In this document: piece by piece, positions 1,937-22,665 of the stretch
Layout: each line of letters opens with the position of its first letter
How positions within the stretch are numbered: the stretch's first letter is position 1
Source: Halococcus hamelinensis 100A6
GTDB lineage: Archaea; Halobacteriota; Halobacteria; Halobacteriales; Halococcaceae
Assembly (NCBI RefSeq): GCF_000336675.1
Contig: NZ_AOMB01000003.1
Location: 1 to 64,000, forward strand
Direction of reading: 5' to 3'
DNA: 64,000 nt
Notes under the pieces: model-generated
Databases searched by the model: none
Told to the model about the DNA's origin: nothing
Seen by the model: only the letters and a program-made list of their open reading frames with translations
Position numbers and translations under genes: made by a program

Positions 1937-2048
1937 TCGATAGCAATTCTGTACCAAGTGTTAATAAGAATTGTGACTTGACAACCTATAGTTGATAAAA
2001 TGGCCGATGACGAGGTGATTCGTCGAGAAGTACACTAGGCTAAGGGAG

Positions 2049-4488: not shown

Positions 4489-4522
4489 CGAATCCTACAG
4501 AAGCTTGGTAGGCCAGTCGATA

Positions 4523-4720: not shown

Positions 4721-4916
4721 ACTGTACCGAGTATCTACAGCCATTGTAGGATTTGCTAAGACTGCCAGCGCCTAATGAATTGGTGTATTGCACAATGTTG
4801 TCGCAATTGCCAACCTGTAAGTGGTTGTAGCATATACTAACCACTACAGCCCGAGACCGTCTGAGAAACGACGGCCCCGCGCGCCAACGCGGGACCACGG
4901 GTTGCCTATCAACCCC

Positions 4917-5083
4917 ATGCAACACCACGACCTCGTGGCTCTTGAAGACCGCGAACTGACGGACGCATCGTCTGTGACTTTATCAAGGGAGAGCGTCGCC
5001 TTGAAGGCAATATCGAGGCGGCTCGTGGCTGAACACCTGCGCACCTGCTCTCCGAAGGGTACATCACCCCGCGCCCGGAGTGA
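4917..5083 (+). pseudogene. Decayed gene remnant upstream of the methyltransferase
   Basis: The sequence just before the methyltransferase carries coding-like fragments in more than one frame. From the ATG at 4917 the frame reads MQHHDLVALEDRELTD. A second frame then reads GRIVCDFIKGERRLEGNIEA, meets TGA, and continues as HLLSEGYITPRPE to a TGA at 5081. No single open frame links them, so I read this as a small gene broken by frameshifts and an in-frame stop. The original function is not recognisable. It stops 6 nt before the methyltransferase start, so it may once have been the first gene of the restriction-modification operon. Confidence 0.4.
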
Positions 5084-5089
5084 CAACTA

Positions 5090-6079
5090 ATGACTGCGGT
5101 CGACGTGCTTAGAGAGCACATTCCGGACTCCTGTCGCGACCTCCTCGAGCTCACGGACAACGAACTCAAATCGGAGATCCCCGCGCTCGCTCGTGACCAA
5201 GGACGAATGGGCGAGGTCGAGCAGGCCGTCCGATCGCTCCCCTCCCATCACGACCTCTATCAGGGAGACTCGCGCGACCTCTCGATGATCGACGACGAAA
5301 GCGTCCAGCTCATCGCGACCAGTCCACCGTACTTCAACCTCAAGGACTACGAAAACGGCGTCGCCGATGGCCAACTCGGCGATATCAATGACTACGAGCG
5401 TTTCAATCAGATGCTCGACGGCATCTGGGAACAGTGCTATGAGAAGCTCGTTCCTGGTGGTCGGTTGTGCGTCGTCGTCGGTGACGTCCTCCGCTCTCGG
5501 AGCGAGCACGGTCGTCACCGGGTCATCCCACTCCACGCCTCGATACAGGAGCACTGCACTGCCATCGGCTACGATAACCTCGCGCCGGTCATTTGGTATA
5601 AGATCGGCAACGCCTCGCTCGAGTCGGGCGGGAACGCCCGCTTCCTCGGGAAGCCCTACGAGCCCGGTGCCGTCATCAAGAACGATATCGAGTACATTCT
5701 CCTCTTTCGCAAACCCGGCGGCTATCGCTCGCCGTCGATCGAGGAGCGCATCCTGAGCACGATCGAGGCCGACGAGCATCAGAAGATGTTCCGCCAGCTC
5801 TGGGATGACATCACGGGCAAACGTCAGGGAGAGCACCCCGCGCCGTATCCTGCGGCGCTCGCTGAGCGTCTCATTCGAATGTTCTCTTTCGCCGGCGATA
5901 CCGTGCTCGACCCGTTCGCCGGGACCGGCTCGACGGCTGTGGCGGCCTCGCGAGTCGGTCGGAATTCGGTCAGCGTCGAAATCGAACCGAAGTACATCGA
6001 GATCGCCGAGGAACGGATCCAGGGCGAGCGTGGCACACTCACGAACTACCAGAACCTTACTGTCGACGTCACCCGATAG
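5090..6079 (+). CDS. Site-specific DNA methyltransferase (beta-class, TSPPY type)
   Basis: Modification enzyme of 329 residues. The catalytic motif IV is TSPPYFNLKDY near residues 81-91; the TSPPY form is characteristic of N4-cytosine methyltransferases, though some N6-adenine enzymes share it. The AdoMet-binding motif I (DPFAGTGSTAVAA) follows near residue 270, giving the catalytic-before-binding order of the beta class. The C-terminus (VEIEPKYIEIAEERI) is the usual continuation of motif I. It heads a same-strand group with a membrane protein gene and a nuclease-like gene. It most likely protects host DNA from the nuclease at 7026. The recognition sequence cannot be predicted. Confidence 0.9.
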   Translation: MTAVDVLREHIPDSCRDLLELTDNELKSEIPALARDQGRMGEVEQAVRSLPSHHDLYQGDSRDLSMIDDESVQLIATSPPYFNLKDYENGVADGQLGDINDYERFNQMLDGIWEQCYEKLVPGGRLCVVVGDVLRSRSEHGRHRVIPLHASIQEHCTAIGYDNLAPVIWYKIGNASLESGGNARFLGKPYEPGAVIKNDIEYILLFRKPGGYRSPSIEERILSTIEADEHQKMFRQLWDDITGKRQGEHPAPYPAALAERLIRMFSFAGDTVLDPFAGTGSTAVAASRVGRNSVSVEIEPKYIEIAEERIQGERGTLTNYQNLTVDVTR

Positions 6080-6094
6080 GTCGACTATCGGTAG

Positions 6095-6928
6095 ATGATG
6101 AGACGGAACACTCTGGTGCAGATCGGTTTACTGGCGGCTGGTGTTGTGTTGGTCGGGATAATTGTCGTGACCATCTGGTTAGGATGGACAGGTCGTATTG
6201 ACAGTAGAACTGCTTCACTTGTTATCGGCGGTGTCAGCGCGTTCGCGAGCGCATCATTGGCGATTGCAACTTACACGACTGTTCTACAGAACCGCCGCAC
6301 TGTAGAGGAGCTACAAAAGGATCGAGAGAAGCCCTTAGCTCAAGATGTTCTTCGACAATTGGTTGCGCCGTTTAAGCAGCAAATAGAAGACCACATAGAC
6401 AGGATGGAGTCGGACTACCCTCCCTGGGTTCAGATCTGGAACACATATGGCGAGCAGCACGCAACCCGATTCTATCAAGAGTTGTCAACGGACAGGGCGA
6501 GCGACACAGCAGTCAGAAAGTTAAGACGGGACAATCCAGATCTCATGAAGCAAATTGACAAACACAACCAGTCGGTCCGCGATGTCGAAGAAACTATAGA
6601 AGCTCTTCTGAGCAGACTCGACGAGCGAGTGGAGGTTCTTCTAGGTGAACGAGTTGCCGACCACATGGATATAAACGACGAAGAAATTAGAGTTCTTTCG
6701 AAATGTGTTTTGCAAGGATACAGCCAAGACGCGTCGTCATTGTACGCTACTGAACTCTGGGAAGCATATAGCGGCGAACTACAGGAACTAAAGGATGAAG
6801 AAATCGTTGCGGAGTTATCAAATACCCGTTCAGATTACTATAGCGAGTGTCAGTCGATAAGAGACGCTCTTTTAGAGTACAAGATGGAGATACAACAGCA
6901 ATACGGGATCTCAGAAAGCGATCTGTAG
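6095..6928 (+). CDS. Membrane-anchored coiled-coil protein between methyltransferase and restriction genes
   Basis: A 277-residue protein of unknown family. Two N-terminal membrane helices (about residues 6-30 and 40-62, IGLLAAGVVLVGIIVVTIWLG and SLVIGGVSAFASASLAIATY) are followed by a long charged, mostly helical cytoplasmic part with heptad-like runs (NRRTVEELQKDREK; VRDVEETIEALLSRLDERVEVLL). It begins 15 nt after the methyltransferase stop. Base composition is more AT-rich than its two neighbours, which suggests a separate origin. It is not a recognised specificity subunit or control protein. It may be unrelated cargo or a membrane-linked accessory of the restriction system. Confidence 0.7.
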   Translation: MMRRNTLVQIGLLAAGVVLVGIIVVTIWLGWTGRIDSRTASLVIGGVSAFASASLAIATYTTVLQNRRTVEELQKDREKPLAQDVLRQLVAPFKQQIEDHIDRMESDYPPWVQIWNTYGEQHATRFYQELSTDRASDTAVRKLRRDNPDLMKQIDKHNQSVRDVEETIEALLSRLDERVEVLLGERVADHMDINDEEIRVLSKCVLQGYSQDASSLYATELWEAYSGELQELKDEEIVAELSNTRSDYYSECQSIRDALLEYKMEIQQQYGISESDL

Positions 6929-7025
6929 AGTATAGATTACCGTACACGGCTGACCTGTATCCACTCACTGGAGACACATCGTTTCGCACCTAGTTTTATA
7001 CCGCAGACCTTGTGACACCGAAGGG

Positions 7026-7976
7026 ATGGCGCACACGTACGGCGATGAGCGAATCGCCGAGTGGTTGCGAGAAAACGAGTACCACCCTCGATCCTCGAAA
7101 CACGGCAGCGTCAGCTGTCTCGCACTCCTTGATGACCTCCTCTATGAGAGCGATCTGTTCCGGGAAGCCGCCGAGGCCGGCGAGATCGTTTACGAAGAGG
7201 ATTACACAGTCGGCGAGGGAGAGCTCCGTTGGAACGTCGATTTAGTGCTCGGACCTCCAACTAACGAGGTCGAGACCCCTATCGAGGGCGACCGCCAGAT
7301 CGCTGAGGCCAACCCCGAAGAGATCTGGCTCGCGATCGACGCGAAGTCGGTGATGACCGAACACCAGAAAGCTCGCCGGAATCGCCAGCGCGATATCAAC
7401 GGCTTCGCGGATATCATGTACCACCACTATCCTGGAGCCGTCGCTGGTGGCGTCCTCCTCATCAATATCGCAGACCAGTTCAGAAGCCCACTTCGCGATG
7501 AGGGTGATATCACCGAGCACGACAATATCGAGCGCCTGGTCGAGGAGACCATCGAGATCTTCCGAACCATCGACCGCTCGGAGGGCGAGATCGACCCGAA
7601 CGTCGACGCCGCCGCCACAGTCGTGGTCGACCATACGAACCTCGACGATGACCATGAGACTCAGCTCGTCGAGGATCCTCCGGCACCCGGCGAGAACTCT
7701 ATCGTCAACTACCGAACGTTCCTCAGCATCATCGTCGAGACCTTCGAGGAGCGATTCCTGATCGGCGACCCACCTAATATGGCCACCCTTCGCGAGGCCG
7801 ATACCCTTCGCAACGAGCTGAACGAGCAGGTCGTTGAGCTCCTCCACTACGTCCATGAGGTCGGCGTCACAATGGAACAAGGCGAGGTAAGTGAGGACTC
7901 AATTGAAGACCTCCGTGAGACATTAGGACAGCTCGAGGACCTCGTCGACGGAGTAGAACAGCGACACGCCGAATAG
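7026..7976 (+). CDS. Restriction endonuclease-like protein (PD-(D/E)XK)
   Basis: A 316-residue protein that I read as the nuclease partner of the upstream methyltransferase. A candidate catalytic core is visible: the Asp in RWNVDLVLGPP near residue 73, then IWLAIDAKSVMTEHQKARRNR around residues 100-120, where the D-x-K triad ends a beta strand and a basic helix follows, as in type II enzymes. The rest is acidic and helical, with FRTIDRSEGEIDPNVDAAATVV and a C-terminal helical region. The start at 7026 (MAHTYGDERIAEWL) lacks a competing ATG. Assignment rests on motif and position; I cannot name the restriction family. Confidence 0.75.
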   Translation: MAHTYGDERIAEWLRENEYHPRSSKHGSVSCLALLDDLLYESDLFREAAEAGEIVYEEDYTVGEGELRWNVDLVLGPPTNEVETPIEGDRQIAEANPEEIWLAIDAKSVMTEHQKARRNRQRDINGFADIMYHHYPGAVAGGVLLINIADQFRSPLRDEGDITEHDNIERLVEETIEIFRTIDRSEGEIDPNVDAAATVVVDHTNLDDDHETQLVEDPPAPGENSIVNYRTFLSIIVETFEERFLIGDPPNMATLREADTLRNELNEQVVELLHYVHEVGVTMEQGEVSEDSIEDLRETLGQLEDLVDGVEQRHAE

Positions 7977-8094
7977 AGATGAGTTGCTTGGTTCTGATCT
8001 ACTTGAAGTAGAGAGTTCCAAGTTATGAAATAGCTCGTATGAATGCAAGTAGTAATGTTCGCGAAGACGCATACAAGCAAGGTGTGTTCGTTAG

Positions 8095-9000
8095 ATGAGT
8101 CGATCGTTATCACCTATTGCGGGATTCTTGTACCTGATGAAAGGAGCTATCCGGTGGCTCTTCTATGCCAACAAAGAAGAAGTAGACTCGAAATTCAGGG
8201 AACAGATCAACTGGGAAAAAGCGAAAGTGAGATCAATGTGGCTCCTACTTTCACTCATACCCATATCTTTTGCTTATGAAATAGTCTTTTGCGGATTGTT
8301 TGAATCATTTCCAGTATTCTTTGGAGCAATACATGAATCACTACTCCGCGACGGAGAATGCGCGCGGTTTCTGAACAAGGACTACTTAAGCGCAGCAACG
8401 ACCTTTTCCTATTCTCTAAGTGCGTTTTTACTCGTTGCTGTCGCCGTAGTCTTTTCTGGCCAGCAGCGAGTGAAATCGAGTAATAAAGATGGGTCAGAAA
8501 GCGGCGGTGGTGGCGGGTCTAGTGATGATTCTGGTGGAGAAGACTATTCATTCTTTTTTGACCTTCCAAATCCGTTTTATGAGAGAGAAGCAGAAGATTC
8601 TGGGACTGAAAATGAAATAGAACAGATTCAGATCTTCAGAGTGTTCGGTCAGCTACAGGGCACTTCAGGAGGGTCAGACTCACCGAATGGTAACGGAGAC
8701 GACGACGGTGGAGAAGATAACGGCGATGACGAGCGGCGAAACTTCAATAGGCGACTCCAGCGAGCACTGGCATATTCTATATCCGCCTCATTGCTTGGAG
8801 TTCTCATCACAACACTCCTTCCGCTTCCAGTGTTGTTTGTTCATGACCTCCCGCGGGTGGTATCGGGCCCAGTATCTCTCATAAGTAATGTCGGGTATGC
8901 GTTCCTAACGCACGTGTTCACATTCATCTTTCTTGGGATGGTGTGGACTTCGGTAGAGCTGATCGAACTCTTAGACACCAGCTCAGATACAGACAAATAG
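8095..9000 (+). CDS. Multi-spanning membrane protein of unknown function
   Basis: 301 residues. Two membrane helices lie in the N-terminal part (MWLLLSLIPISFAYEIVFCG; a second near SLSAFLLVAVAVVFSG). A long hydrophilic loop rich in Gly, Ser, Asp and Asn follows (residues about 135-215, with a GGGGGSSDDSGGED linker). Two further helices sit near the C-terminus (ISASLLGVLITTLLPLPVLF; FLTHVFTFIFLGMVWTSVEL). AT-rich relative to the restriction genes, as is the membrane protein at 6095. It follows the restriction locus on the same strand after 118 nt. No family was recognised; a role as membrane effector is only a guess. Confidence 0.65.
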   Translation: MSRSLSPIAGFLYLMKGAIRWLFYANKEEVDSKFREQINWEKAKVRSMWLLLSLIPISFAYEIVFCGLFESFPVFFGAIHESLLRDGECARFLNKDYLSAATTFSYSLSAFLLVAVAVVFSGQQRVKSSNKDGSESGGGGGSSDDSGGEDYSFFFDLPNPFYEREAEDSGTENEIEQIQIFRVFGQLQGTSGGSDSPNGNGDDDGGEDNGDDERRNFNRRLQRALAYSISASLLGVLITTLLPLPVLFVHDLPRVVSGPVSLISNVGYAFLTHVFTFIFLGMVWTSVELIELLDTSSDTDK

Positions 9001-9016
9001 AGTATGTCGATGAATC

Positions 9017-9604
9017 TCAGTACGTCAGGTAGTAGGCCTCGACGATCTCGTCCTGGGCGGTCCGCACGTACCTCGACACGCGGTGGTCGCTCCAGGTTTC
9101 CTCGCCAACGATCTCCTCACTCTTTTCGAGGCCCCAGTACTCCTCCTGGAGACACTAGCAGTACTCCAATTTGATCTGCCTCATCGTCTTCGGCTGTAGG
9201 TTGCCGTGCATATTCCGAATTTGGTACCAGTTCACGACCTCGTCTTGGAACTCTTTCAGGATGGGGCGCATCTCGATGTAGCGCTTGAGTGAGAGCTCGC
9301 GCTCGCGGCAGAGCTCGGCGAGATACCCCGAAGCATACACCCACCACCACTGGTCATCCTTCGCCCGATGCAACTCACCGAACCCCACTAAGACACTGGC
9401 AGCCGCCCAGGTATCGGGACCGCTCAAGCCGAGTTCGTCCTGGAGGTTGCTGTGAGAGATCATCGGCTGCTCGCCGTCGTAGACGCGGGCGTACGCGGCG
9501 GAGATGTCTTCGAGGGTGGTGGCGTACTCCTCGGCGAAGTCACGAAGCTCGTCGAGTTCCTCGATGAACAGCGCCCGGCCCTCTTTCTGCTTGTGAACCC
9601 ACAT
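9017..9604 (-). pseudogene. Hypothetical gene interrupted by an in-frame TAG
   Basis: Reading from the ATG at 9604 gives 149 residues (MWVHKQKEGRALFIEELDEL) up to a TAG at 9155-9157. The same frame then continues for about 45 codons with clean coding character (CLQEEYWGLEKSEEIVGEE, later SRYVRTAQDEIVEAYYLTY) to a TGA at 9017-9019. The acidic, Trp/Tyr-containing tail matches the composition of the upstream part, so the TAG looks like a recent nonsense mutation or base error in a gene of about 195 codons. No family was recognised. The gene is divergent from the helicase-nuclease operon that starts at 9.7 kb. Confidence 0.65.
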
Positions 9605-9720: not shown

Positions 9721-11928
9721 ATGGTTACTGATAATCCATCTACCGAAAAATTCTATGCACTCGATTTCTTGCCGTCTCCACTTGCTGACCAATTCGCTGC
9801 CGCTTACAAGGAACTTCTCGAGGACCACAATTCCCGTGAAATTCTTGTCCTGAAACGTATTCCATGCAATCTGGACGCACTTGCTGATCATATTCAGAAT
9901 ACTCTCGGACTTATGATTCGTCCCGACGTCCAATCACTACCGCAGCATGCTTCCCATGTCGTCGAACTCAATGATCCAGATATTGATCGGCTGGCTTACG
10001 AACAACGTATCGAACTGCTCGGCGACGTCATCGAATCTACGGATTGGGAAACGCTCATTGATGAGGCAACAACCCGGTTCGACAATGTACGGTGGCCCGA
10101 CAACTACCAGCGAGCAGACGTCATCGAGTTCTTGCAGATCGCCAGCGAACAGGATAGTTTTGGTCGGGACGTTGGACAAGTTCTTCTCGAGGCCACCCGG
10201 CAAGGGGGGTTCAGCCCCCCGAACGACGATGCGGAACGACACATCCTGACCGCGGCACTTGCCTGTCTCAACGATCTGTTTCATGACCGGCTGGATAGCC
10301 ACGGCTTAGTCGAACGGGCAAACATTGTCCCCCGCGCCACGGACGCCCTGCAGGACGACACCACCTACAGTCACGCGGCCTCTGAGTTCAAAGCAATCCT
10401 CGCCCTCGAATTCGAAGAATACACGGTAAACGATCGCCAGTACCTCGCCCAACTCGCCAACGATGCGGACCTGATCGCGATCGGTGAACGCAATGCCAGT
10501 ATTCAACGGGTCAAGACCGAGCCAGGTGAACTGGACGACCTCCGTGATGGCTGTGTCATTGATTTTGATCTCGGTGACCCCGCAATACTCGACGAAGCTG
10601 GGGGAGCCTATCGCTCCGATACGGATCCGGGACAAATCGCCTCATATCTGGCAACCGGTACCGAACCCATGGACAGCGTCTCCGCCGTTCACCTCCACGA
10701 ATCCACCTTTCGAGACCAGATCAGTGCTGTCGCCAACGAAGTCGAATATCTCCGACACGGCACCGACGCAGAATACGGCGACTTCGCCGTCGTCGTGAAT
10801 GATCTTGGTGACCGGCTGTCAGAAGCCCGCCGCCATCTCCGGGCTGCCGGCCTACCAACCAAGACCGTGGGCGCACCCGCGCTCGCTGAAGACCCGGCTG
10901 TCACCGAGCTCTACGCCTTCGTACAGTTCCTTCTGAATCGCGATACGGAGGCTGAGTCCTGGCTGACCGCCCGGCTTGAGGGGTTCTCACCTGACTTCGC
11001 CGAAGCCTGTAACACAGGACCGATCGAGCACCGGCTCAACCGGTGGATCGTCAACACCGATCTGAAAGAGCGCATCGCTGCCGGTAAGAGCCATATCGAG
11101 ATGCAGGAACAGTTCCAGAACATCGAGCGGGTGACCGATCTTGCTCGGTTCATCGACCAGACCACTCTGCTGGACAGCGACTTACCCACCTTCAAACATG
11201 TGCTGGAGCGGGCGATACGTTTTGACGCGGCATACACACATACGATCGAAACCTCCCCCCAAATGTATGGCGTGACGGTGACCGACATCCAGGGCATCAA
11301 ACATGAGGCTTATAATACGGTATTCCTGTTAGGCGTGGTGGACGATGAGTATCCCGGCGGGGAGCGGTTGACACCGTTGTTCCCAAAACCATGGCTTATG
11401 GACATGCCGGACTACCCGGCGCTCACCGAGGTCGATGACGACACGGTCGACGCCACGTACGGAACCTTCACCGGGGAGCGGTCCACCAGTGCCTTCGACG
11501 CGTATTACCACCATCGGGAACGCCGCAAACTGGCGCTTGGTGCCCGGGCCGCGACGGACCACCTGTACTTCTGTACATATGATTCGCAGGATAATGGACT
11601 GGGCCGGGCGTACAATCCGTCGCGTTACCTCTACCGTTTGAAGGATCAGGATTGGAGTGTATTCAACGACCTGTCGATGGAAAGTGATGACCGGCCAATC
11701 CAGACACGGGAGAAAGTGGCCGAATACATCCTTGATCAGCCGTGGGGCGAGCTCGAGGGCATCGTGAACGCCGCGCATACCGGTCAAACAGCGGAGATCG
11801 AGGACACTGAGGAAGTGTTCGGAGTCATCCAGGGGCTACTGTCGGAAGACGACGTGGACCCCGTCTTCGCCGACGCAGTCGCCAGTCAATTTGCCATAGC
11901 CCGCGGAGAGGTGATGCACAGTGACTGA
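9721..11928 (+). CDS. AddB/RexB-like inactive helicase subunit
   Basis: A 735-residue protein that I read as the AddB-like partner of the helicase-nuclease encoded downstream. The UvrD-like C-terminal half is visible: VVNDLGDRLSEARRHLRAAGLP near residues 355-380 resembles the start of helicase domain 2, and the segment VTDIQGIKHEAYNTVFLLGV near residue 520, followed by DDEYPG, corresponds to the region of motif V. No GxxxxGK(S/T) Walker A is present, so ATP hydrolysis is not expected; AddB-type subunits often serve as scaffolds. The nuclease domain that ends AddB is absent and appears as the next gene. ATG at 9721 was preferred over those at 9706 and 9712. Stop overlaps the next start by 8 nt. 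Confidence 0.65.
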   Translation: MVTDNPSTEKFYALDFLPSPLADQFAAAYKELLEDHNSREILVLKRIPCNLDALADHIQNTLGLMIRPDVQSLPQHASHVVELNDPDIDRLAYEQRIELLGDVIESTDWETLIDEATTRFDNVRWPDNYQRADVIEFLQIASEQDSFGRDVGQVLLEATRQGGFSPPNDDAERHILTAALACLNDLFHDRLDSHGLVERANIVPRATDALQDDTTYSHAASEFKAILALEFEEYTVNDRQYLAQLANDADLIAIGERNASIQRVKTEPGELDDLRDGCVIDFDLGDPAILDEAGGAYRSDTDPGQIASYLATGTEPMDSVSAVHLHESTFRDQISAVANEVEYLRHGTDAEYGDFAVVVNDLGDRLSEARRHLRAAGLPTKTVGAPALAEDPAVTELYAFVQFLLNRDTEAESWLTARLEGFSPDFAEACNTGPIEHRLNRWIVNTDLKERIAAGKSHIEMQEQFQNIERVTDLARFIDQTTLLDSDLPTFKHVLERAIRFDAAYTHTIETSPQMYGVTVTDIQGIKHEAYNTVFLLGVVDDEYPGGERLTPLFPKPWLMDMPDYPALTEVDDDTVDATYGTFTGERSTSAFDAYYHHRERRKLALGARAATDHLYFCTYDSQDNGLGRAYNPSRYLYRLKDQDWSVFNDLSMESDDRPIQTREKVAEYILDQPWGELEGIVNAAHTGQTAEIEDTEEVFGVIQGLLSEDDVDPVFADAVASQFAIARGEVMHSD

Positions 11929-12865
11929 CCCGTACATGGCGCAAGAGCTGACGACATTCCTCGTGTGTCCACGGAAGTACGAGTTCGAGCACGTTACCGA
12001 GTTGGCCGGAGAGACGCGGCGGAACCAAGATCTATTCCAGAAGCTGCTCCGGAAGTCGATTTGCACCGGGTATAGTGAAGCCCAGAGTAACGGTGGGGAT
12101 CCTCGTGACGCGGCGATGGCGGCGCTTTACTCGACGTGGGGACTGTATGCCGGTGCGACAGACCATCATTCGTCGCAGCAGGAATCCACGGAGAAGACTC
12201 GGGCCGAGGCCGGGATAGAGGCCTACTTTGATGCGGTCGGGACCACGCATCTTGACCAAATTGAACAGGCGGCCACCGTCTGTGGTGCGCCGGTGGTCGG
12301 CCCCGATATCACGTTGACTGCGGAGATCCAGGGGCAGCAGGTCGGGGTGGATGTGGATTATATCATGGCCGATGATAGCCGGATCGTGGGTGTGCGGCTG
12401 ACGGATCGGATGTGGATAAACAACGTCCCTAATGAATCCGATGATGAAATTGTCGAGGAGCATCTCGATCAGGGTGATTATGAGCCTGAAAAAGTGGGGT
12501 CGGTGATCGCTGCCCGGATTGCTGAAGAAGCACTTAGCCAGTACGGTAGTAACGGGAACGGAACAGGGCTAATGTATCTGAGTGTGATGGAGGACACGTT
12601 TGAGACAGACGGTAGGTGCGAGGCAGTAACCGACCGACGGCAGATGGGCCTGTTTCTTGCGGACAGACGTCAGACGGTGGATGATGCAATCGCGTGGATG
12701 GTCGGAAACATTGCCAACGAGAGGTACAGTCCTGAGGAAGTGTTTGACGAGCAAAATTTCTGGGACGGCGACTTTCAGCAAGTAGTTGAAAATACGTGCC
12801 GGTACTGTTCACATGCTGCGGGCTGTCAGGAAGCGATCCGTCGGGAGGTGAAGTTCGATGTCTAA
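11921..12865 (+). CDS. Cas4/AddB-type Fe-S PD-(D/E)XK domain protein, nuclease residues degenerate
   Basis: 314 residues from a GTG at 11921. One Cys near the N-terminus (FLVCPRKYEFEH, residues about 13-24) and three near the C-terminus (CRYCSHAAGC) form the four-Cys pattern that holds a [4Fe-4S] cluster in AddB, Cas4 and related nucleases. Between them a strand pair (VGVDVDYIMADDSRIVGVRL) occupies the position of the D...(D/E)xK catalytic motif, but the second part reads GVRLTD rather than DYK, so activity is doubtful. It is coupled by 8-nt overlaps to the genes on both sides. It looks like the detached C-terminal domain of AddB, kept as a structural or DNA-binding part. Confidence 0.65.
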   Translation: MTDPYMAQELTTFLVCPRKYEFEHVTELAGETRRNQDLFQKLLRKSICTGYSEAQSNGGDPRDAAMAALYSTWGLYAGATDHHSSQQESTEKTRAEAGIEAYFDAVGTTHLDQIEQAATVCGAPVVGPDITLTAEIQGQQVGVDVDYIMADDSRIVGVRLTDRMWINNVPNESDDEIVEEHLDQGDYEPEKVGSVIAARIAEEALSQYGSNGNGTGLMYLSVMEDTFETDGRCEAVTDRRQMGLFLADRRQTVDDAIAWMVGNIANERYSPEEVFDEQNFWDGDFQQVVENTCRYCSHAAGCQEAIRREVKFDV

Positions 12866-15800
12866 ATTGGGGTCATCAGACGGTCCGACACCGAAAGGTG
12901 GACAGAAAGATGTTCTTGACGCCGAGAACGGATGTGTCAGAGTCGACGCTGGTGCGGGTACCGGGAAAACCACAACGATGCGGTGGCGGATCGAACAGAT
13001 GCTTACTGCGGCTGATGCCCCGTCGTCGGACCGGGTGCTAGTCCTAACATTCGCGAATGAAGCGGCGGGCTCAATCCAGGAAAGTATCACGGAAGCGGAG
13101 CAGCTGTCCATCGACCAAGCGTACAACGTCGATGTCTACACCTACCACTCGTTCTGCAACCGTCTTGTTTCCGAGTATGCCTACATTCTCGGGGCAGATC
13201 CTGACTTTGATGTGATCACTAAAGACCAGCGGTACCGCATCATCGAGTCACTGATCACTGAACACAACTATCAGTATGTCTCACAGCGGCAGAATGATTC
13301 CGAGGCCGTGGTCAAGCAAGCGCGGAACTACATCCGAGATATGCGGCAAGAAGCCATAACCCCGGGAATGATCAATAATTTTCTACCACCGAGATCTACA
13401 GTAGGTGAGCTCAAACAGCTTGTCGTAAATTTGGAACAATCAGCGGCCCAGGTGTTTGATCCGGATAGTCTCATTCCCGATGACTTTGAGGCTGGCGAGA
13501 CACAGATTGCATCTAGTCTGGCGGAGTACCGGGAAGCACTCGCTCATTGGCAGCAAGCCGCGGAGCACCAATCGGGGGAAATATGGAGTACAGTTGAGTC
13601 ATACCTTGATTTCCTGGAGCTGTGGACGGAAATGGTGGAAGCACTCGTCCATGAAGACTCGCCTATGGCGTACAATTTCCTTCCCCATGCGTTGTTCCAG
13701 AGCGGTATCAACAGCTACTGGTGGACAGATTTGAAACAGACGCCGTTCGGGCATCTCAAATCCTATATCACGGTGCTCGAAGAGATGCACCAGCTTCAGG
13801 AGATCTATCAGGATTATGTGGATGAACTCGAGTTCCGTGGAGCATTGGATTTTGATGGGCTCATCAACAGAGCAGACATGCTAATAAATGATTCGCAGGT
13901 AAGTGCTGAAATCCGCAGTCGTTGGGACTACGTCTACTGTGACGAATTTCAGGATACGGACGACGTCCAGATGGATGTCGTGACAGGTTTGTATCAGAAT
14001 GATGGCACGCAGCTGCTTGCTATTGGTGATGTCGATCAGGCAATCTATGGCTGGCGTGGTGCAAATCCTGATGGATTAAACGAGTTGGGAGACCACTTTG
14101 AAGACGATAACCGGATTGATATGCAGCTGAACTTCCGGTCAGAACAAGAGATCCTGGAAGTGGCAAACCAGTGCGGCGGCTACGATTCGAAAGACTTGGT
14201 CTCTGACAACTGCGAGACCGAGACAGATGACGGTGAGGCCTATGTTACACGGGATGAAGACGACGAGGCCCGAGTAGCTCTTGTCAACGGGAATAAGACA
14301 CAGCAGACGACCGCGCAAGAAGTTGCGACAACCATTTCGCAGCTACTAGAAAACGGATTCAACGATATTGAAGGTCGATCATTAGGTGATATTGCGGTAG
14401 TCGTGCGGAGAAACAGGCAGGCCCGAGACGTGGCAGCGAGCCTCCGGAACCGGCAGATCCCGTACCGGGTTGATGGGTCCAGTGAATCGGTGCTAAAATC
14501 GGGTGTTCAGACTATTCTCTCGTATTTCCGGACTCTTGTCGATCCGGATGCGGATATCCATCTTCGTCGGGTACTGATGCTGGTATACCGCGTAACTGAC
14601 ACGGACCTGAAAGCACTCGAGACCGCTCCGGCTGACTCGCTATACGACGCGGTAATGAACCATGACGATATCGGCAGCCTCTTCCTCGATGAGCCGGAGC
14701 GGGTGGACCGGGCACAAAACGATATCGACGAACTGCATGAGCTCAAGGACAGCCATTCACTGCCGTATTTCTACAGTGCGTTTCTCGACACAACGGCTGT
14801 TGAATGGTATTTGAAGGAAGACGATCGTGCGCAGATGGACCGGATCAAGAAGTTCATCGAAGCGTATGAGAGCGATAACGTGCTCCGCCGGTTCTCCGAG
14901 GGCTTCGTTGACAGCTTGGAACGATCGCTGAAAGGAAGCGATGACGTCGGAGTCGGAATCGGATCCCAGTCAGAGGACAAGGTCAATATTATGACGGTTC
15001 ACCAGGCCAAGGGCCTCCAGTTTGACACGGTGCTGTTCCCCTATCTGGAGGATACTGAGTGGCTATCAATGAACTGTCCCTCGTGGGCATCGCCAGAGGA
15101 TGCGGCGTGGAATGCCCACCGGTACAGCTCGATTATTCGGTCGCTGAAGGATGAGGAGTTCACTCATCCCTTGGCGGAGTCACTATACCAAGAGGAACAG
15201 GAGGAACACTGGCGTACGTTCCACGTTGGTGTAACGCGTGCCGAATCACTGCTTGTCCTCTTTAGCCAGCCACCAGAGGAATACGATGACTGGAAAAAAT
15301 CGGTATCATACTTGCGGCGACAGTGTATCCGAGCGTCAGGCCCAACAAATTCACCGGAGCAACTCCTCATAGATGTGTTTCCGGATGTCGATACCCCATG
15401 GTCGCCCGAACAGCCAAAGATGCGACTGTGGAATACTGTGCAAGCTACCTTCGAGAAGGTACAGGAGCAGTATCCACACACGGTTATAGATCTGTCTGAT
15501 GCGGTGTCGGAGGCTGCCGATGCAACGCCGGGTACGATCACTTACTACAACAAGTATGAGGATAAACTGAACATCGAGCAGGCGACCGATGAGATCCATG
15601 AGTTGGGGCGGGATATCTTCGAGGAGAACCTGACACCTCAAGACTCCGCTGAGACCGATATCTATCCCACGTCGCTGTCGTTCGAGGACGGCGCGAAGCT
15701 CCCGGTGCAGCACAGCCACACATCGCTGGAGACGTACTCAGACTGTCCGCGACGCCACCTACTAGACCACGTGCTCTACGGCTTCGATGATCCAATGCCG

Positions 15801-16487
15801 GCAGACGCGGCGATCGGCCGGTCAGATGAACCGAGCTGGCGGAAAGTCGGGGACGTGTTCCATGCTGTAGCGGAGGAAGCCTTCTACCAGAACCACACCG
15901 CTGAGAACGAATGGCTGGCTATCTGTGACCGGGTCGTACGAGCCCGGGATCTGGAATCGGTACGTTCCGAGGTCGAAGAGTGTATTCACCGACTGTTCGG
16001 GACAGATCTGTTGGCATGGGACCCTATTGCCGCCGAACTTCCGTTCGAAGTGACGGGTGTTCCAGGTGTTGACGGTCCGGTCGTCGGCTATATCGATTCA
16101 GTGCGACGGGTACCGGACAAAGGTCTCGCGGTTCTAGATTACAAGACGACGTTCGACAAGCGGGATATCGCGTCCTCATCACAGCTCTTACTGTATCTCC
16201 GGGCCTGTGAGGAGTTGTTTGATGAACCGGTGAACTGGGCCGGATACGTATATGTCGGTGAAGCTGGCGGTACCTCTGGCGAAATCGACTTGATCTCCCG
16301 CGATGAATTCGAGGGTGGCTGGGATGACGTTATAGATATGTTACAGAGTGCGGATTCACCGTCATGGAAAGCGAAGCCTGGGTCGCATTGTCAGCATTGT
16401 ACACACCGGTCACTGGGCTGTGCGCCGGACGAATATGCATATGACAACGAGTTTGTGATCGACAGCGGAGGCTCAAAATCTCATTAA
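12858..16487 (+). CDS. AddA/RecB-like UvrD-family helicase with C-terminal PD-(D/E)XK nuclease
   Basis: A 1209-residue ATP-dependent helicase-nuclease. Superfamily 1 motifs appear in order: Walker A GAGTGKTTT (about residues 31-39), Walker B CDEFQDTDD (about 358-366), GDVDQAIYGWRGA (about 390), VHQAKGLQFDTVLFP (about 711-725) and GVTRAESLL (about 790). The C-terminal nuclease carries one Cys at 961 (SDCPRRH), GYIDSV then VLDYKTTFDK (about 1070-1100, intact D...DxK), QLLLYLRA, and a CQHCTHRSLGC cluster near 1178, so an Fe-S nuclease is expected. It starts within the last codons of the previous gene. In bacteria such complexes process double-strand breaks and degrade foreign linear DNA. Confidence 0.85.
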   Translation: MSKLGSSDGPTPKGGQKDVLDAENGCVRVDAGAGTGKTTTMRWRIEQMLTAADAPSSDRVLVLTFANEAAGSIQESITEAEQLSIDQAYNVDVYTYHSFCNRLVSEYAYILGADPDFDVITKDQRYRIIESLITEHNYQYVSQRQNDSEAVVKQARNYIRDMRQEAITPGMINNFLPPRSTVGELKQLVVNLEQSAAQVFDPDSLIPDDFEAGETQIASSLAEYREALAHWQQAAEHQSGEIWSTVESYLDFLELWTEMVEALVHEDSPMAYNFLPHALFQSGINSYWWTDLKQTPFGHLKSYITVLEEMHQLQEIYQDYVDELEFRGALDFDGLINRADMLINDSQVSAEIRSRWDYVYCDEFQDTDDVQMDVVTGLYQNDGTQLLAIGDVDQAIYGWRGANPDGLNELGDHFEDDNRIDMQLNFRSEQEILEVANQCGGYDSKDLVSDNCETETDDGEAYVTRDEDDEARVALVNGNKTQQTTAQEVATTISQLLENGFNDIEGRSLGDIAVVVRRNRQARDVAASLRNRQIPYRVDGSSESVLKSGVQTILSYFRTLVDPDADIHLRRVLMLVYRVTDTDLKALETAPADSLYDAVMNHDDIGSLFLDEPERVDRAQNDIDELHELKDSHSLPYFYSAFLDTTAVEWYLKEDDRAQMDRIKKFIEAYESDNVLRRFSEGFVDSLERSLKGSDDVGVGIGSQSEDKVNIMTVHQAKGLQFDTVLFPYLEDTEWLSMNCPSWASPEDAAWNAHRYSSIIRSLKDEEFTHPLAESLYQEEQEEHWRTFHVGVTRAESLLVLFSQPPEEYDDWKKSVSYLRRQCIRASGPTNSPEQLLIDVFPDVDTPWSPEQPKMRLWNTVQATFEKVQEQYPHTVIDLSDAVSEAADATPGTITYYNKYEDKLNIEQATDEIHELGRDIFEENLTPQDSAETDIYPTSLSFEDGAKLPVQHSHTSLETYSDCPRRHLLDHVLYGFDDPMPADAAIGRSDEPSWRKVGDVFHAVAEEAFYQNHTAENEWLAICDRVVRARDLESVRSEVEECIHRLFGTDLLAWDPIAAELPFEVTGVPGVDGPVVGYIDSVRRVPDKGLAVLDYKTTFDKRDIASSSQLLLYLRACEELFDEPVNWAGYVYVGEAGGTSGEIDLISRDEFEGGWDDVIDMLQSADSPSWKAKPGSHCQHCTHRSLGCAPDEYAYDNEFVIDSGGSKSH

Positions 16488-16531
16488 ACGAGTTAGGTGA
16501 AAGGGCTGCTTGGTCGATTGATGCGCTTGGG

Positions 16532-17437
16532 TCAAGGAGTCAGCGAGTTCAACACCAGCACGTTGCTTGGGTCCTCCGCGAGGTCGGGACGCTGACTTCG
16601 TGGGAGGTCGTGAGCCAAGTCTAGCAACACGTCTTCTTGGATCCTGGTCAGTGTGCACTCATTCCCGTATCGGTCGAATACCTCCGTTCAGAAGGCATCG
16701 CTCACTGCGATTTCGGACGCCTCGTAGGGCCTGAGTCGACCGCTCTGGTCGAGTGATTCACCCGGTTGGCCACTGAGCGACGGTCCCCGTTCGGACCAAG
16801 CTTGCCAAACGTCCGGTGCTCCACTATCGTCGTTCTGTTGGGCTCGCTCGTGAAGCCACGCAACCGGGACAACGCTGGTGTTGAGGATCGACAGGTGAAA
16901 CTAGTAGTTCGGGACCTGTGTCCCGCTCGCTGTATAGTATGACCGAACTTCGAGGTGGTTGGGAACGCAGAGGCCACAGAACTCAACCACGCCCGATTCG
17001 GGCTTGCGGAACACGAGGATGGGCGGAACCTCCTCACGCTGGCCGGCCGTAGCGCTCTCGAAGGCGGATTTGATTTTCCGATTCTGTATGAACTCGTCGT
17101 ACGGGTTCGAAGCTTTTGCGTCTCCCCAGTAGCTAATATGGCCAGTGTTGATGGCAAGCGTATCCTCCAAGGGGTCGTCCTGTTGGGAGATCCCGCTGTC
17201 GTTCGAGACGAGGACGAGAGCCGCAGGCACGTCCGAACGGTCCGCAGTGAGGTAGCGAATCCCACGTGTTCTTGATACCACTGTCGAGTGGACCGCGAAT
17301 CCACCGCAAGAACTGGTCTTCGGACCTGCGGTAGCTTCCAGTGTCGTGGTATCGATCACCAACCCGAAATTCGCGTCGCATGGTATCACGATAATGGCCC
17401 CTATCAGGGGATAGCTCTCTGGGTGACGCAGGTTGCT
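16532..17437 (-). pseudogene. Decayed HNH endonuclease gene
   Basis: One frame on the minus strand stays coding-like for about 300 codons but is cut by stops. An open segment (about 17437 to 16904; MIPCDANFGLVIDTTTLEA, YLTADRSDVPAALVLVSNDS) ends in TAG at 16901. The frame resumes as FHLSILNTSVVPVAWLHERA, meets TGA at 16688, continues as DRYGNECTLTRIQEDVLLDL-AHDLPRSQ-DLAEDPSNVLVLNSL, and ends in TGA at 16532. The last part fits an HNH core: Cys, then Leu-Leu-x-Leu-Ala-His, then Asp-Pro-Ser-Asn. The final His-x-x-Phe-Asp stretch is lost. I infer an inactivated HNH nuclease, possibly restriction-type. Confidence 0.7.
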
Positions 17438-17605: not shown

Positions 17606-18838
17606 ATGGCCGCCTCGCTCCCCGAACCAGTCGTGCTTGCAGCGGCGAAGGATGCGCTCTATCCTGAAATTGAGAACCGACCGCGTCGGTATGCCGTCGT
17701 CGACACACAGTTCACAGTAGATTTGTGGGGTAATTGGCCAGTCCCAGCATCGGTACGAGACCGCCTCATGCCGTTCAACGCTATCAGACTTTCCTCAGGC
17801 GAACCCGACCTGCTTGGCGTGGGGTTACCCCCTGATGGCGTACTCAATGCTCGTTCAGCGAGCGATCCAGTCGTGGCTGTCGAAGCGAAAGGCCACAATA
17901 CCGCACCCGAAAAAGCGGATATCTCTCGAGGGATCGAACAGGCCCACTCCCATCTCCCGGAGGCTAACCTCGGCTATGTTGCTGCGCCGATGGAAAGCGT
18001 CACCCAAACAGCACGCTCACTAGCCCGCGAACTCAACATTGGCGTCCTCGGTGTTCGCACTGACGAGAGCGTGGGGATCGTCGAACCAGCCCGTGTAGCT
18101 GGAGCCGGTGAGTTCTCCACCGGTATCGAGGCGCTCCGATTCCAAGCGAGTACCCACCAGCTAACTGCAGGGAGTTTTCCGGTGAATCATCCGAAGAACT
18201 TCCTTGGGTATGCCCTCGCTCTCGCTGCCGGAGGCGACACCGCTGATATCTACGCCGAAAACGTCATTCGAGACGTGGCTAGCGGCCGACGCGGCGCGAT
18301 TTTGTTGAATCTTGTCGACCCTCGAAGTGACGGCGAATACTTGACCCACCTCGGTGCGGAGGTAGTTCGGTTCGCTCATCAACAGTCTGGCAGTGTCTCA
18401 GCGGCGCTCACACGGTTCAGTGAATGGACTGGCAAGCGAACCCGCTTCACTGAACTGGCACCGCGCTGGGCGCAGCTTGCACGATCTATTGCAATGCAGT
18501 ACGAACCAACTCAGCTCATCGTAGACGTACTCGAACAGACCCATGCAGGAAACTCACGAGCCGTAACGCTCTCAGAGCTCGTCACTCGCGCCTGTGAGCT
18601 GAACAAGCCGCTTGCTATCGAGGTGTTCATCACAACTGGCGAGCGCGAGAACGCACTCACCCCGGACGGTGACCTCGACGAAACGCAACTCGATAATCCA
18701 GCGATCTACAAGTCAGGTGCCTACTTCCAGTTCAAGGCCCAATTGTATCACGTCGGTCTTCTCACCAGTGGTGGAACGGACAACGGAGAGCAGGCACTGA
18801 GCAATGAGTGGCAATTGGAGCACGCTGTAAGCCTATGA
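17606..18838 (+). CDS. PD-(D/E)XK nuclease-like protein of unknown family
   Basis: A 410-residue protein beginning MAASLPEPVVLAAAKDALYP. Around residues 65-95 it has SSGEPDLLGVGLPPDG followed by VVAVEAKGHN, which fits the PD...(D/E)xK core of restriction-like nucleases: an acidic residue before a strand, then Glu-Ala-Lys at the end of the next strand, then SRGIEQAHSHL as the following helix. The C-terminal part contains LVTRACELNKPLAIEVFITT and resembles a winged-helix-like or helical domain without a clear match. It follows the decayed HNH gene and precedes a serine recombinase. The nuclease assignment is by motif only. Confidence 0.6.
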   Translation: MAASLPEPVVLAAAKDALYPEIENRPRRYAVVDTQFTVDLWGNWPVPASVRDRLMPFNAIRLSSGEPDLLGVGLPPDGVLNARSASDPVVAVEAKGHNTAPEKADISRGIEQAHSHLPEANLGYVAAPMESVTQTARSLARELNIGVLGVRTDESVGIVEPARVAGAGEFSTGIEALRFQASTHQLTAGSFPVNHPKNFLGYALALAAGGDTADIYAENVIRDVASGRRGAILLNLVDPRSDGEYLTHLGAEVVRFAHQQSGSVSAALTRFSEWTGKRTRFTELAPRWAQLARSIAMQYEPTQLIVDVLEQTHAGNSRAVTLSELVTRACELNKPLAIEVFITTGERENALTPDGDLDETQLDNPAIYKSGAYFQFKAQLYHVGLLTSGGTDNGEQALSNEWQLEHAVSL

Positions 18839-18930: not shown

Positions 18931-19704
18931 GTGGTGCAGTCAGCCGCTATCTACGCCCGTGTCAGTACCCCCGAGCAGCACCCTCAACGTCAACTCAACG
19001 AGTGCCGTGAGCACATCGTTTCGAAGTTCCCAGAGATCACGAGTATCGAGACGTACACGGACATCATCTCAGGCGTCGCCAAACACGGTGGTGAACAGTA
19101 CCGCGAACTCAACGAGGCTATCAAAAACGATGACTACGACCTCGTCGTGGTTCACGAGATCTCACGACTCTCGAGGCTCGGTGCTGGCGAAATTCATCGA
19201 TTTATCCAACGTTGCATGGAACGAGGGACAGTCGTTGAGTCGCTCGACCTCGGCCTCTCGATTCACGTCGAGGACTCACCCATCCAGCGAACCATCTACA
19301 CCATGATCGCCAGCATCATGGGCGACCTCGCGAAGATCGAGCACGAACAGGACCTTCTCCGTATCCAATCAGGGATCCGAGCCGCCCAGCAGGCTGGGAG
19401 GTGGACCGGCCGGCCACCGCGAGGCTTCGTGACCGACGAGAATGGTGTTCTCCACGTTGATATCGAGGAATTTCTCAAAACTCGCGAGGCGCTTCTCCGT
19501 CTCAAGCACGGTGAACGGAAATTGGTCGTCGCTGAAAGGTCGGGGATCCCACGGAGTACGCTCGTTGGACTGTTCAGAGACGAACAACGTCGCGCTATCT
19601 ATCTCGATGGTGTAGCTACTGACGAGCGTCTCAATCGTGCTCTCGCCGAATTTCGGGCCTTCTCGGACTTGGCACCAAACGAATCAAAAAGGAGGTTCAA
19701 CTGA
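18931..19704 (+). CDS. Serine recombinase (resolvase/invertase family)
   Basis: Site-specific recombinase of 257 residues starting at GTG 18931. The resolvase domain opens with AAIYARVSTPEQHPQRQ: the Ser of ARVST is the expected nucleophile, and the following Glu-Gln and Arg fit the family. VVHEISRLSRLGAGEIHRF near residues 75-95 is the conserved R-x-S-R-L segment. IMGDLAKIEHE leads into the long helix, followed by the GRPPRGF linker. The C-terminal DNA-binding part has a helix-turn-helix (ERSGIPRSTLVGLF). Haloarchaeal plasmids and transposable elements carry similar enzymes. It may have mobilised neighbouring island genes; no cognate inverted repeats were found. Confidence 0.88.
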   Translation: MVQSAAIYARVSTPEQHPQRQLNECREHIVSKFPEITSIETYTDIISGVAKHGGEQYRELNEAIKNDDYDLVVVHEISRLSRLGAGEIHRFIQRCMERGTVVESLDLGLSIHVEDSPIQRTIYTMIASIMGDLAKIEHEQDLLRIQSGIRAAQQAGRWTGRPPRGFVTDENGVLHVDIEEFLKTREALLRLKHGERKLVVAERSGIPRSTLVGLFRDEQRRAIYLDGVATDERLNRALAEFRAFSDLAPNESKRRFN

Positions 19705-19837: not shown

Positions 19838-21595
19838 TCATGTTGGAAACCAGTCTACCAGGTTGCATATATGTAGGTCAATCAAACCCAATGCCGTTCC
19901 GACCAGTATCGCTGCCACCAGTAGGTAATATATGAACAGGTCATATGCAAGGGTGTACTCAAATGCAAATTCACCACGAGTCCATCCTAAAAAGTCAAAA
20001 AACCTCTGGAGTGGCGAACCCTCCACACCTCTTTCTAGTTGTAGGTCTTCCCGCTCCGATTCGTCAAAGAATTTGCTATAAAAATCCACCGAAGACATCC
20101 TATCATTAACGAGTCGATCTAATTGCTCATGAATTCCTCTGACCCGGCGCAAGACCACTAAACCATAGACAGAGACCAGCGACAGAAGGAATGTGAAAGC
20201 TGTAGTTGAATCAACGCTAGCTGGAAGTCTGTAGTATATTGTGGCTCCAAGCGCAATCACAAAGGCAATAGTTCTAAACATATCGCGTGACAACCCGTCA
20301 ATTAGCTGCGATCGAAGATCAGAGAATCTGCTGTTGGTTTCGAATACACTGTCGATCAATTCCTGGCGAAACTCAAAGAAGTCATCTGTCGTTTGTTCGA
20401 CATAGTATTGGTAGTTCGATTTGGTCGATCCATGAATCTCGCTTATATTTGCGACGACATCTGACAGATTTTGAGCGAACAGCGTAGCGACGTTTCTCAC
20501 AATTGGCATGCGAGTCTCTGGCTCACTGCCTTCTATGTACGTCCATTCAAACAAGGAGCGGAAATTCTCAATATCAAGCTGCTCAATCCGGAACGTTTCA
20601 TCTGAACCATCGGCATTACGAACAGCGACCTCCTCAGAAAAAACTTGGATACCACCTTCAATAAGCTGCTTTCCACTAATCTGTAATCCCCACATGGTCC
20701 CGTCCTGTTGTGCACTACTGGTAATCGATAGCATCGAAAATAGAACAGCATGACGCTTGAATAGGGTCTCAATCTGTTCGGCCTCTTCACCTGTGGATTG
20801 TGGGTCGAATTTGAAGAAAGATGGTGGAAGGTATACGTCTGAGATGTTTTCAATAAGTGATTGTCTCGCCACAGAATCCATGAGATTCTTCCAAGCAGCG
20901 CGGCGGCTTCTTGGCCACTCTGAGATTTGGTCTATTGAGCTCAATCCTGTAATGGCGAAATCTCCGTTATAGGCTATTGAATCGAAATCGTATATCACGA
21001 AGACAAGACGATCTTCTTCGCTAAGATACTCTCTTTTGAAATTCTCAGGTGACACGTTAGAAAGGTCTTCCTCAAAAAAGTTGAACGAGAAATAGAAATA
21101 CACACTCGTATCTTCGAAACCATACTCTTCTTCTAGCTTTTCCACAATTCCTCGCTTCTCGATGCCGAAATCAACGCTGAGGTCTATGTCTTCTCGAGGA
21201 ATTAGTAACTGTAACACATCAATTAGATCATCTACACTCCGAAGACGGTCATTTGAAATGCTACGAATGGCATCTTCGACCTGATCATCATCGTATAAGT
21301 CGCTGATATTATATTCACTGCCAGAGACAAGATCAGACTGTATAATATCCAGACTCACATCCCAATCTACATTGTACTGGTCTTCACCACCATCAATATC
21401 TATCCCGAAGGAGCCGGGACTGAACGACTCTGAGAGCCTTTCAACATTCTCAATCAGCTCTGGTATTTGCTCTTCGTTAATTTGCTCCGGGTTCAGTGAA
21501 TACTCACGATTCCTCTCTGTTGCTGACTCTCTCCATCTTTCTAAGAAGTCTGAAAGCTCAGCGTCTAAATTGGGTGTTGAATTTCCCAAACTCAT
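19838..21595 (-). CDS. Large membrane-anchored protein coupled to a NdpA-like protein
   Basis: A 585-residue protein of unknown family. The first 420 residues are soluble, acidic and mixed alpha/beta (DVSLDIIQSDLVSGSEYNIS; KREYLSEEDRLVFVIYDFDS). The C-terminal part has three membrane helices: about residues 427-445 (IAFVIALGATIYYRL), 455-475 (FTFLLSLVSVYGLVVL) and 548-572 (LFIYYLLVAAILVGTALGL). Between the second and third lies a basic and charged loop. The ATG overlaps the TGA of the upstream gene by 4 nt, so the two are translationally coupled. AT-rich codon use compared with haloarchaeal core genes suggests transfer. I infer a two-component, membrane-plus-nucleoid system, perhaps in phage defence. 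Confidence 0.75.
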   Translation of the reverse strand: MSLGNSTPNLDAELSDFLERWRESATERNREYSLNPEQINEEQIPELIENVERLSESFSPGSFGIDIDGGEDQYNVDWDVSLDIIQSDLVSGSEYNISDLYDDDQVEDAIRSISNDRLRSVDDLIDVLQLLIPREDIDLSVDFGIEKRGIVEKLEEEYGFEDTSVYFYFSFNFFEEDLSNVSPENFKREYLSEEDRLVFVIYDFDSIAYNGDFAITGLSSIDQISEWPRSRRAAWKNLMDSVARQSLIENISDVYLPPSFFKFDPQSTGEEAEQIETLFKRHAVLFSMLSITSSAQQDGTMWGLQISGKQLIEGGIQVFSEEVAVRNADGSDETFRIEQLDIENFRSLFEWTYIEGSEPETRMPIVRNVATLFAQNLSDVVANISEIHGSTKSNYQYYVEQTTDDFFEFRQELIDSVFETNSRFSDLRSQLIDGLSRDMFRTIAFVIALGATIYYRLPASVDSTTAFTFLLSLVSVYGLVVLRRVRGIHEQLDRLVNDRMSSVDFYSKFFDESEREDLQLERGVEGSPLQRFFDFLGWTRGEFAFEYTLAYDLFIYYLLVAAILVGTALGLIDLHICNLVDWFPT

Positions 21596-22665
21596 CCTCG
21601 GAAATCTTGATCAAGAGAATCCCCTCTAACAGTAATAATATATTCACCGTTTTCGTACTCAGGCTCCTGTACGGTTACTCTGTCCTCACTCACATCCGAC
21701 ATTTTCACCTTGACTTCTATACCATCAAGATTATACACAACATACTTTGTGGTGTTATTAGGGTCGATCTGAACTTCGCTCTCACCCTCTTCATGCAGCA
21801 TAGCGTCAACTTCTTCCTCGTTATATTCTTCTCCAAGTGCTTGTTCCGCCGCATCATGGACGATTTCGCCATCTGCTATTCCGTCTGAGCCTTGGATAGT
21901 TGTCCTAGCTTCTTGTACCTCTCCAGGATTAAGTACAGAGTCTGACCGATCCTGTTTTATGCCAGATAACCCTTCTAGAATTGTCTGACTCTGCTCTCGA
22001 CTTCCACTGCTCGTGACGCACCCCATGAATTCCTCAAAGTAATCCGAGTCGGCGTCCTCTTGAAGAAACTTCACGTCGCCATCCAAGTTGAATACATTGT
22101 CCTGATCGATAGGATCGAATATAGGATATGTACAACCTTTTTGAAGCTCTTCTGTAGGAGGGAATGCGTCCTCAATCTCCTCATATTCTAATCGTCTGGT
22201 ATCTCGGTCTAAAATCGGCCTTTCTTCACTTTGCACGACATCAAGTTTAAGAATGCCGATGAATGGCTCGTCATTATTGATTGCTTGGATTATGAAAAGG
22301 TAGCCTCTGGAAGTTCGACCGTCCATATGGGATATGAGTCGATTCTTTAGGGAATCAGCTACTTCCTCAAACTCCCTATAATTGGAACTATCTTCATCAT
22401 CTAGTTCTAATTCCCGAAGTCTATTCAGACGTTCTTGTGTTTCATCTCTCACATCCTCGTCACCACTACTATTGGAAAAATGTCCTACAGTTACTTTTCC
22501 AGTATCTTCTTTGTTGATAACCCGACTTAAATATCCTACAAATATCCCTATCACCCGATCATCAACATCGGCAGTCCGTGTACTAACAACCCAGTCATCA
22601 TCATCTCCGGATTCGATGTCGTGCGCTACAGGCGAGAAACTAATTGCGTTGATATTGATAACCAT
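21592..22665 (-). CDS. Nucleoid-associated protein (NdpA/YejK)-like
   Basis: A 357-residue acidic protein starting MVININAISFSPVAHDIES. The middle region resembles the NdpA/YejK (37-kDa nucleoid-associated) family: RGYLFIIQAINNDEPFIGIL, KLDVVQSEERPIL, then the SDYFEEFMGC box near residues 205-215, which matches the DYF..FLGC-type signature. The C-terminal part is strongly acidic, ending in two beta-rich segments (KYVVYNLDGIEVKVKM; YENGEYIITVRGD). It is the first gene of a coupled pair with the 585-residue membrane protein. NdpA relatives occur in bacterial defence loci; its DNA-binding role here is inferred from the family. Confidence 0.6.
   Translation of the reverse strand: MVININAISFSPVAHDIESGDDDDWVVSTRTADVDDRVIGIFVGYLSRVINKEDTGKVTVGHFSNSSGDEDVRDETQERLNRLRELELDDEDSSNYREFEEVADSLKNRLISHMDGRTSRGYLFIIQAINNDEPFIGILKLDVVQSEERPILDRDTRRLEYEEIEDAFPPTEELQKGCTYPIFDPIDQDNVFNLDGDVKFLQEDADSDYFEEFMGCVTSSGSREQSQTILEGLSGIKQDRSDSVLNPGEVQEARTTIQGSDGIADGEIVHDAAEQALGEEYNEEEVDAMLHEEGESEVQIDPNNTTKYVVYNLDGIEVKVKMSDVSEDRVTVQEPEYENGEYIITVRGDSLDQDFRG

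Follow-up and report, generated by a model that had tools for sequence, protein, structure and literature searches.

Two overlapping genes on the minus strand of the window (by which we mean the whole stretch of 64,000 nucleotides analysed here) form a conserved, co-evolving and horizontally moving module within defence clusters. We regard it as rather probable that this pair, in which an NA37/YejK-family protein is followed by a large membrane protein, is a variant of the two-gene anti-phage system DS-1, in which case the novelty is an archaeal DS-1 with a new N-terminal domain. The pair and its characterised neighbours are laid out as follows:

21592..22665, minus strand: NA37/YejK-family protein of 357 aa, first gene of the pair (ORF; Pfam NA37; YejK fold match; 11-member alignment)
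22018..22044, minus strand: DYFEEFMGC box of the NA37 domain, residues 208-216 (conserved in alignments)
21592..21595, minus strand: ATGA stop/start overlap of 4 nt (ORF ends)
19838..21595, minus strand: membrane partner of 585 aa, second gene (ORF; 11-member alignment)
20576..21595, minus strand: archaea-specific soluble N-terminal region of the partner, residues 1-340 (AlphaFold2 model; no fold match or bacterial relative)
20300..20575, minus strand: linker/coiled-coil core of the partner, probably common to bacterial DS-1B-like partners, residues 341-432 (hhalign, block shuffles)
20213..20269, minus strand: predicted transmembrane helix 1, residues 443-461 (Kyte-Doolittle)
20150..20206, minus strand: predicted transmembrane helix 2, residues 464-482 (Kyte-Doolittle)
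19880..19936, minus strand: predicted transmembrane helix 3, residues 554-572 (Kyte-Doolittle)
18931..19704, plus strand: serine recombinase with a Resolvase N-terminal domain, adjacent and convergent (Pfam PF00239, 7e-21)
12858..16487, plus strand: UvrD helicase/PD-(D/E)XK nuclease fusion (Pfam; PADLOC GajB-type helicase match)

The first-pass annotation, made from the sequence alone, had described a translationally coupled pair of AT-rich genes, and both points hold: the reading frames lie where it placed them, with an overlap of 4 nt, and homologous archaeal pairs keep an intergenic spacing of -11 to +14 nt. Both genes have a GC content of 0.43-0.44, against 0.545 for the window, and occupy its lowest-GC stretch; the pair was probably acquired by horizontal transfer.

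Its description of the first protein as NdpA/YejK-like is borne out by profile and by fold. The 357-aa protein scores 34.9 bits against Pfam NA37 over residues 14-329, above the gathering cut-off of 24.6, so that the profile check on which the annotation had staked this assignment came out in its favour, and its AlphaFold2 model (mean pLDDT 69.6) has a single significant match in the PDB, E. coli YejK (9BE2; E = 1.4e-6, prob 1.00). The DYFEEFMGC box to which the annotation had pointed is indeed a conserved stretch, reading YF..F..C in archaeal NA37 proteins and YFR.FLGC in most of the bacterial NA37 partners. Fold and Pfam family are thus those of the housekeeping nucleoid-associated protein YejK/NdpA, but identity in the structural alignment is only about 15%, and whereas YejK on the E. 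coli K-12 chromosome has no such paired membrane protein, the archaeal NA37 protein has one. Judging from its family, the 357-aa protein may well bind DNA or the nucleoid.

The second protein was expected to be soluble-plus-membrane with three helices, and this is what hydropathy and the structural model indicate: about residues 1-380 make up a soluble N-terminal portion, there is a long helical linker, and three hydrophobic helices lie towards the C-terminus, at about the positions listed above. No Pfam, NCBIfam or PADLOC family matches it above chance, and its model has no significant fold match in the PDB or in a viral library; weak matches to DUF1798 (E 0.007), DUF2760 (E 0.07) and a CARF-HEPN model (E 0.009) were judged to be chance.

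Are the two genes truly a unit? The first-pass annotation had called for both proteins to be searched together, with separability in most genomes counting against its reading, and the two turn out to be tightly linked. Among 392 genomes of the haloarchaeal order, 14 have an NA37 relative and 12 have the membrane protein, and in 11 of these 12 the NA37 gene lies directly upstream of the membrane-protein gene, in constant order; the twelfth membrane gene (G177/L045) starts at a contig end. Pairwise distances among the NA37 proteins closely follow those among their partners (r = 0.96 for 13 archaeal pairs and 0.95 for 16 bacterial pairs; permutation p = 1e-4), a correlation that is due in part to common descent of the whole pair and which indicates that partners are not readily swapped. 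The pair is accessory, being absent from all nine further genomes of its genus. Copies are carried on plasmids in Haloarcula marina and Halobaculum magnesiiphilum, and one pair (L053) comes from a different archaeal class within the same phylum. A scan of genome contigs found relatives in haloarchaea only, and in viral contigs, scanned with a single protein, the archaeal membrane protein had no relative.

Three haloarchaeal NA37 genes lack a partner (L017, L026, L027). The gene at L017:9347-10132 belongs to the same clade, is cut at residue 229, has transposase-like ORFs nearby and misses the membrane gene; it is a decayed copy of the pair. The other two (L026:9769-10878 and L027:9041-10351) are distant solitary genes in housekeeping surroundings, nested with weak support within the paired archaeal clade of the NA37 tree, and possibly represent domestication following loss of the membrane partner.

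The surroundings of the pair point to defence. The cluster of nucleases and recombinases noticed in the first-pass annotation is real, including in the window the UvrD/PD-(D/E)XK fusion, a neighbouring repair or defence gene outside the system, and the serine recombinase, which is probably mobile context and likewise outside the system. At seven of ten loci, as well as in the window, the neighbours include type I restriction, GmrSD, methylase, SNF2-PLD or UvrD-nuclease genes; the large ones within 10 kb are HsdR-type subunits (L018, L020, L022), GmrSD with a C5 DNA methylase (L015), an SNF2/PLD protein (L019), a DUF1156 methylase (L023) and a UvrD-nuclease (L025). At a PADLOC threshold of 1e-10, 98 proteins near the pairs matched 442 models and 115 proteins from ten control stretches (same contigs, at least 70 kb away from the pair) matched 5, which is a contrast and not a calibrated ratio, because the models are redundant and ORF length cut-offs were unequal between the sets. 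In Pfam, restriction families top the list near the pair and none is among the top families listed for the control. The anti-viral role that the first-pass annotation had suggested is probable.

Several other genes in these neighbourhoods are worth recording. At 17606-18838 of the window, a 410-aa protein with no Pfam or PADLOC match carries a VAVEAKG stretch like a PD-(D/E)XK motif, and is possibly a restriction-like enzyme. A 314-aa protein at 11921-12865, just upstream of the UvrD/PD-(D/E)XK gene and overlapping it, matches no family, and its cysteines recall the Cas4/AddB iron-sulphur nucleases. At locus L024, ORFs of about 1,250-1,410 aa lie on both sides of the pair (1214-9416 and 12819-17054), one of which (5574-9416) has no Pfam family; these giant ORFs are possibly undescribed defence genes.

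The same layout exists in bacteria. A plasmid search with E. coli YejK led to distant NA37 genes in Sphingomonas and Acinetobacter, where the downstream gene, overlapping or nearly so, encodes a membrane protein. Searches with these proteins led on to Methylobacterium, Methylobacter, a second Acinetobacter locus and Pseudomonas, and later rounds to a P2-like prophage contig, a Sinorhizobium phage, phage records from Klebsiella and human faeces, Pseudoalteromonas, Paraglaciecola, P. putida, and prophage-type loci of E. coli and Klebsiella. All were reached by tblastn; at the nucleotide level, the Acinetobacter pair gave no match in E. coli. Together, 16 complete bacterial pairs on plasmids, chromosomes and prophages keep the order of NA37 gene and then membrane-protein gene. 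For two further membrane-protein matches, Cupriavidus L070 and Pseudomonas L080, the stretch examined contains no NA37 gene; they are probably truncated or different. In the P2-like prophage contig the pair (L065:5001-7367) adjoins tail and tape-measure genes, and there, as in Acinetobacter L064, a third small membrane ORF follows it.

It is the E. coli pair that gives the family a name. Present in 105 of 5,426 complete E. coli genomes, it lies between the antiterminator Q and the holin of lambdoid prophages, on the opposite strand (L071:3286-5678; L082:3001-5393), an interval that is a prophage cargo site, and its proteins match NCBIfam NF053868 (DS1_1_antiphage, E = 2e-135) and NF053869 (DS1_2_antiphage, E = 3e-112). 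In the main text of the DefensePredictor study (Science 2026), 42 validated transcriptional units receive DS-n names, one of them with a YejK nucleoid-associated domain; this system, placed in the novel-domain group, protects E. coli against phages, and it is for the E. coli system only that protection is shown there (PMC13092281). The same text mentions Halobacteria for DS-41, DS-26 and DS-29, which are among the 31 systems outside that group (PMC13092281). Going by the NCBIfam names, DS1 is evidently the YejK system of that study, DS-1. The first-pass annotation had known of no described archaeal system with this pairing; as far as the text of PMC13092281 and the NCBIfam models NF053868/NF053869 go, its layout is that of an E. 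coli anti-phage system, and in the literature searched, the DS-1 distribution figure excepted, we found neither a description of an archaeal version nor an experiment on the archaeal pair.

How far, then, does the resemblance go? In both cases the NA37/YejK gene comes first and the membrane-protein gene second and nearly abutting, the C-terminal hydrophobic segments follow a coiled-coil core, and the pair is carried on mobile DNA. Across the 13 archaeal and 16 bacterial pairs, NA37 is always first at a spacing of -20 to +36 nt, and all 29 have C-terminal hydrophobic helices, mostly two or three, hydropathy calling one in E. coli and Klebsiella. The archaeal NA37 proteins align with the bacterial DS-1-like ones over about 230 residues (hhalign E = 7e-11). 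Between the membrane proteins, the profiles of 13 archaeal and 16 bacterial sequences align weakly, archaeal residues 341-432 with bacterial residues 176-272 (P = 3e-4, prob 40), but this core is collinear, immediately preceding the first membrane helix in either set, and its score of 41.3 exceeds all 300 block shuffles (mean 22.3, sd 3.9, maximum 36.3), whilst reversed-profile controls gave P = 0.006 and 0.016. In the closest members, the block ends before the membrane as FSDLRSQL in the window protein and as FSDIQTQL in Acinetobacter. The N-terminal profiles show no similarity to each other (score 17, P = 0.11). From these alignments, the membrane-protein core is probably homologous to that of the bacterial partners, the N-terminal domain having been replaced.

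The differences are nonetheless considerable, and they give some room to the idea that an archaeal NA37 protein was joined convergently to an unrelated coiled-coil membrane protein, yielding a defence system similar to DS-1 or Kiwa but outside the DS-1 family. The archaeal partners are 564-586 aa long, against about 377-455 aa in bacteria, with an unrelated N-terminal domain, and the profile match between the two sets is modest, covering about 90 core residues only. Neither the window pair nor two other archaeal pairs match the NCBIfam DS1 models at E <= 1, though these models are narrow equivalogs: the pairs of P. putida and Methylobacter, with matches of 6e-18 to 3e-33, are below the cut-offs as well. 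On the NA37 tree, the archaeal sequences form a separate deep branch, apart from the bacterial ones with full support, and solitary genes occur on both sides, so that the deep division is between archaea and bacteria and not between paired and solitary genes. Because of this split and these solitary genes, we can envisage either one ancient pairing or two separate pairings. Against convergence stand the collinear core before the first helix, with a score above every block shuffle and the reversed controls, and the same gene order, spacing and helical C-terminus in both sets; we think convergence unlikely, and favour a variant of DS-1.

Kiwa had been proposed as the comparison for this pair, and proves to be an analogy only. 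KwaB is a DUF4868 protein; neither of the archaeal proteins has a Pfam DUF4868 match, a meaningful PADLOC match to Kiwa or fold support for it. On the KwaB side, the Pfam match is to NA37 only and the PDB fold match to YejK only, and, set against the four helices of KwaA, the 585-aa protein has three C-terminal helices and no KwaA match. The archaeal pair puts the DNA-binder first, and its membrane protein is much larger. What the two would have in common is a membrane protein with a DNA-binding partner, acting on incoming DNA at the membrane; in Kiwa, KwaA detects infection at the membrane, whilst KwaB attaches to the DNA that is injected and leaves it uncut (PMC12904381). Kiwa may serve as a working analogy for how NA37 could be recruited to the site of entry.

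We infer anti-viral activity in archaea, formation of a complex, DNA binding by the 357-aa protein and a mechanism of sensing and coating. The NA37/YejK-fold protein would bind DNA, and the membrane protein would hold it at the membrane via the coiled-coil core and the three C-terminal helices, with the cytoplasmic N-terminal domain responding to infection. When a virus enters, this complex would cover or clamp its DNA as it arrives, so that replication or expression is blocked, in much the way that Kiwa works. We posit, tentatively, a still larger step: that this is a distinct immune system, in which a new, archaea-specific cytoplasmic domain detects archaeal viruses as they enter and places NA37 as a clamp on the incoming DNA. 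This would be a membrane-anchored, non-nucleolytic DNA-clamping immunity, common to bacteria and archaea, whose sensor domain can be exchanged.

The tight, NA37-first coupling of the genes also recalls antitoxin/toxin operons. Perhaps the membrane protein is an abortive, toxin-like effector that forms pores or otherwise damages the membrane, silenced by NA37 and released by viral DNA or DNA damage; its membrane segment is C-terminal, and the remnant at L017 has lost the membrane gene, although that remnant does not discriminate, because both of its genes are damaged or lost. Simple membrane toxins do not resemble a 585-aa partner whose soluble domain is large and conserved, and we hold this mode of action to be improbable, more so than convergence. 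That the pair is a maintenance or nucleoid-regulation module of mobile elements, controlling the expression or partition of a plasmid or island (like NdpA2 of the PAPI-1 island) and not viruses, is very improbable: an NA37 protein on an integrative element helps to control the transfer of that element (PMC8565334), and several pairs are on plasmids, but restriction and defence genes surround the pairs whether these are chromosomal or plasmid-borne, the bacterial system is anti-phage and sits in prophage cargo positions, and the three partnerless plasmid YejK genes examined are placed on another branch in the NA37 tree or are unresolved.

Since the two genes occur together in defence clusters and resemble E. 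coli DS-1, a version of this immunity probably exists in archaea too. A variant of DS-1 in haloarchaea would extend to archaea a system that entered the literature from E. coli in 2026, in a study whose main text gives its mechanism without detail. Apart from CRISPR and restriction, little of archaeal innate immunity has been mapped. Considering that NA37, the linker/coiled coil and the membrane helices are kept across domains, these likely constitute the effector core, and the N-terminal domain, which changes between archaea and bacteria, is likely the sensor. The findings indicate that an NA37 DNA-binding protein with a membrane partner is a widespread immune architecture, one whose N-terminal domain can be swapped.
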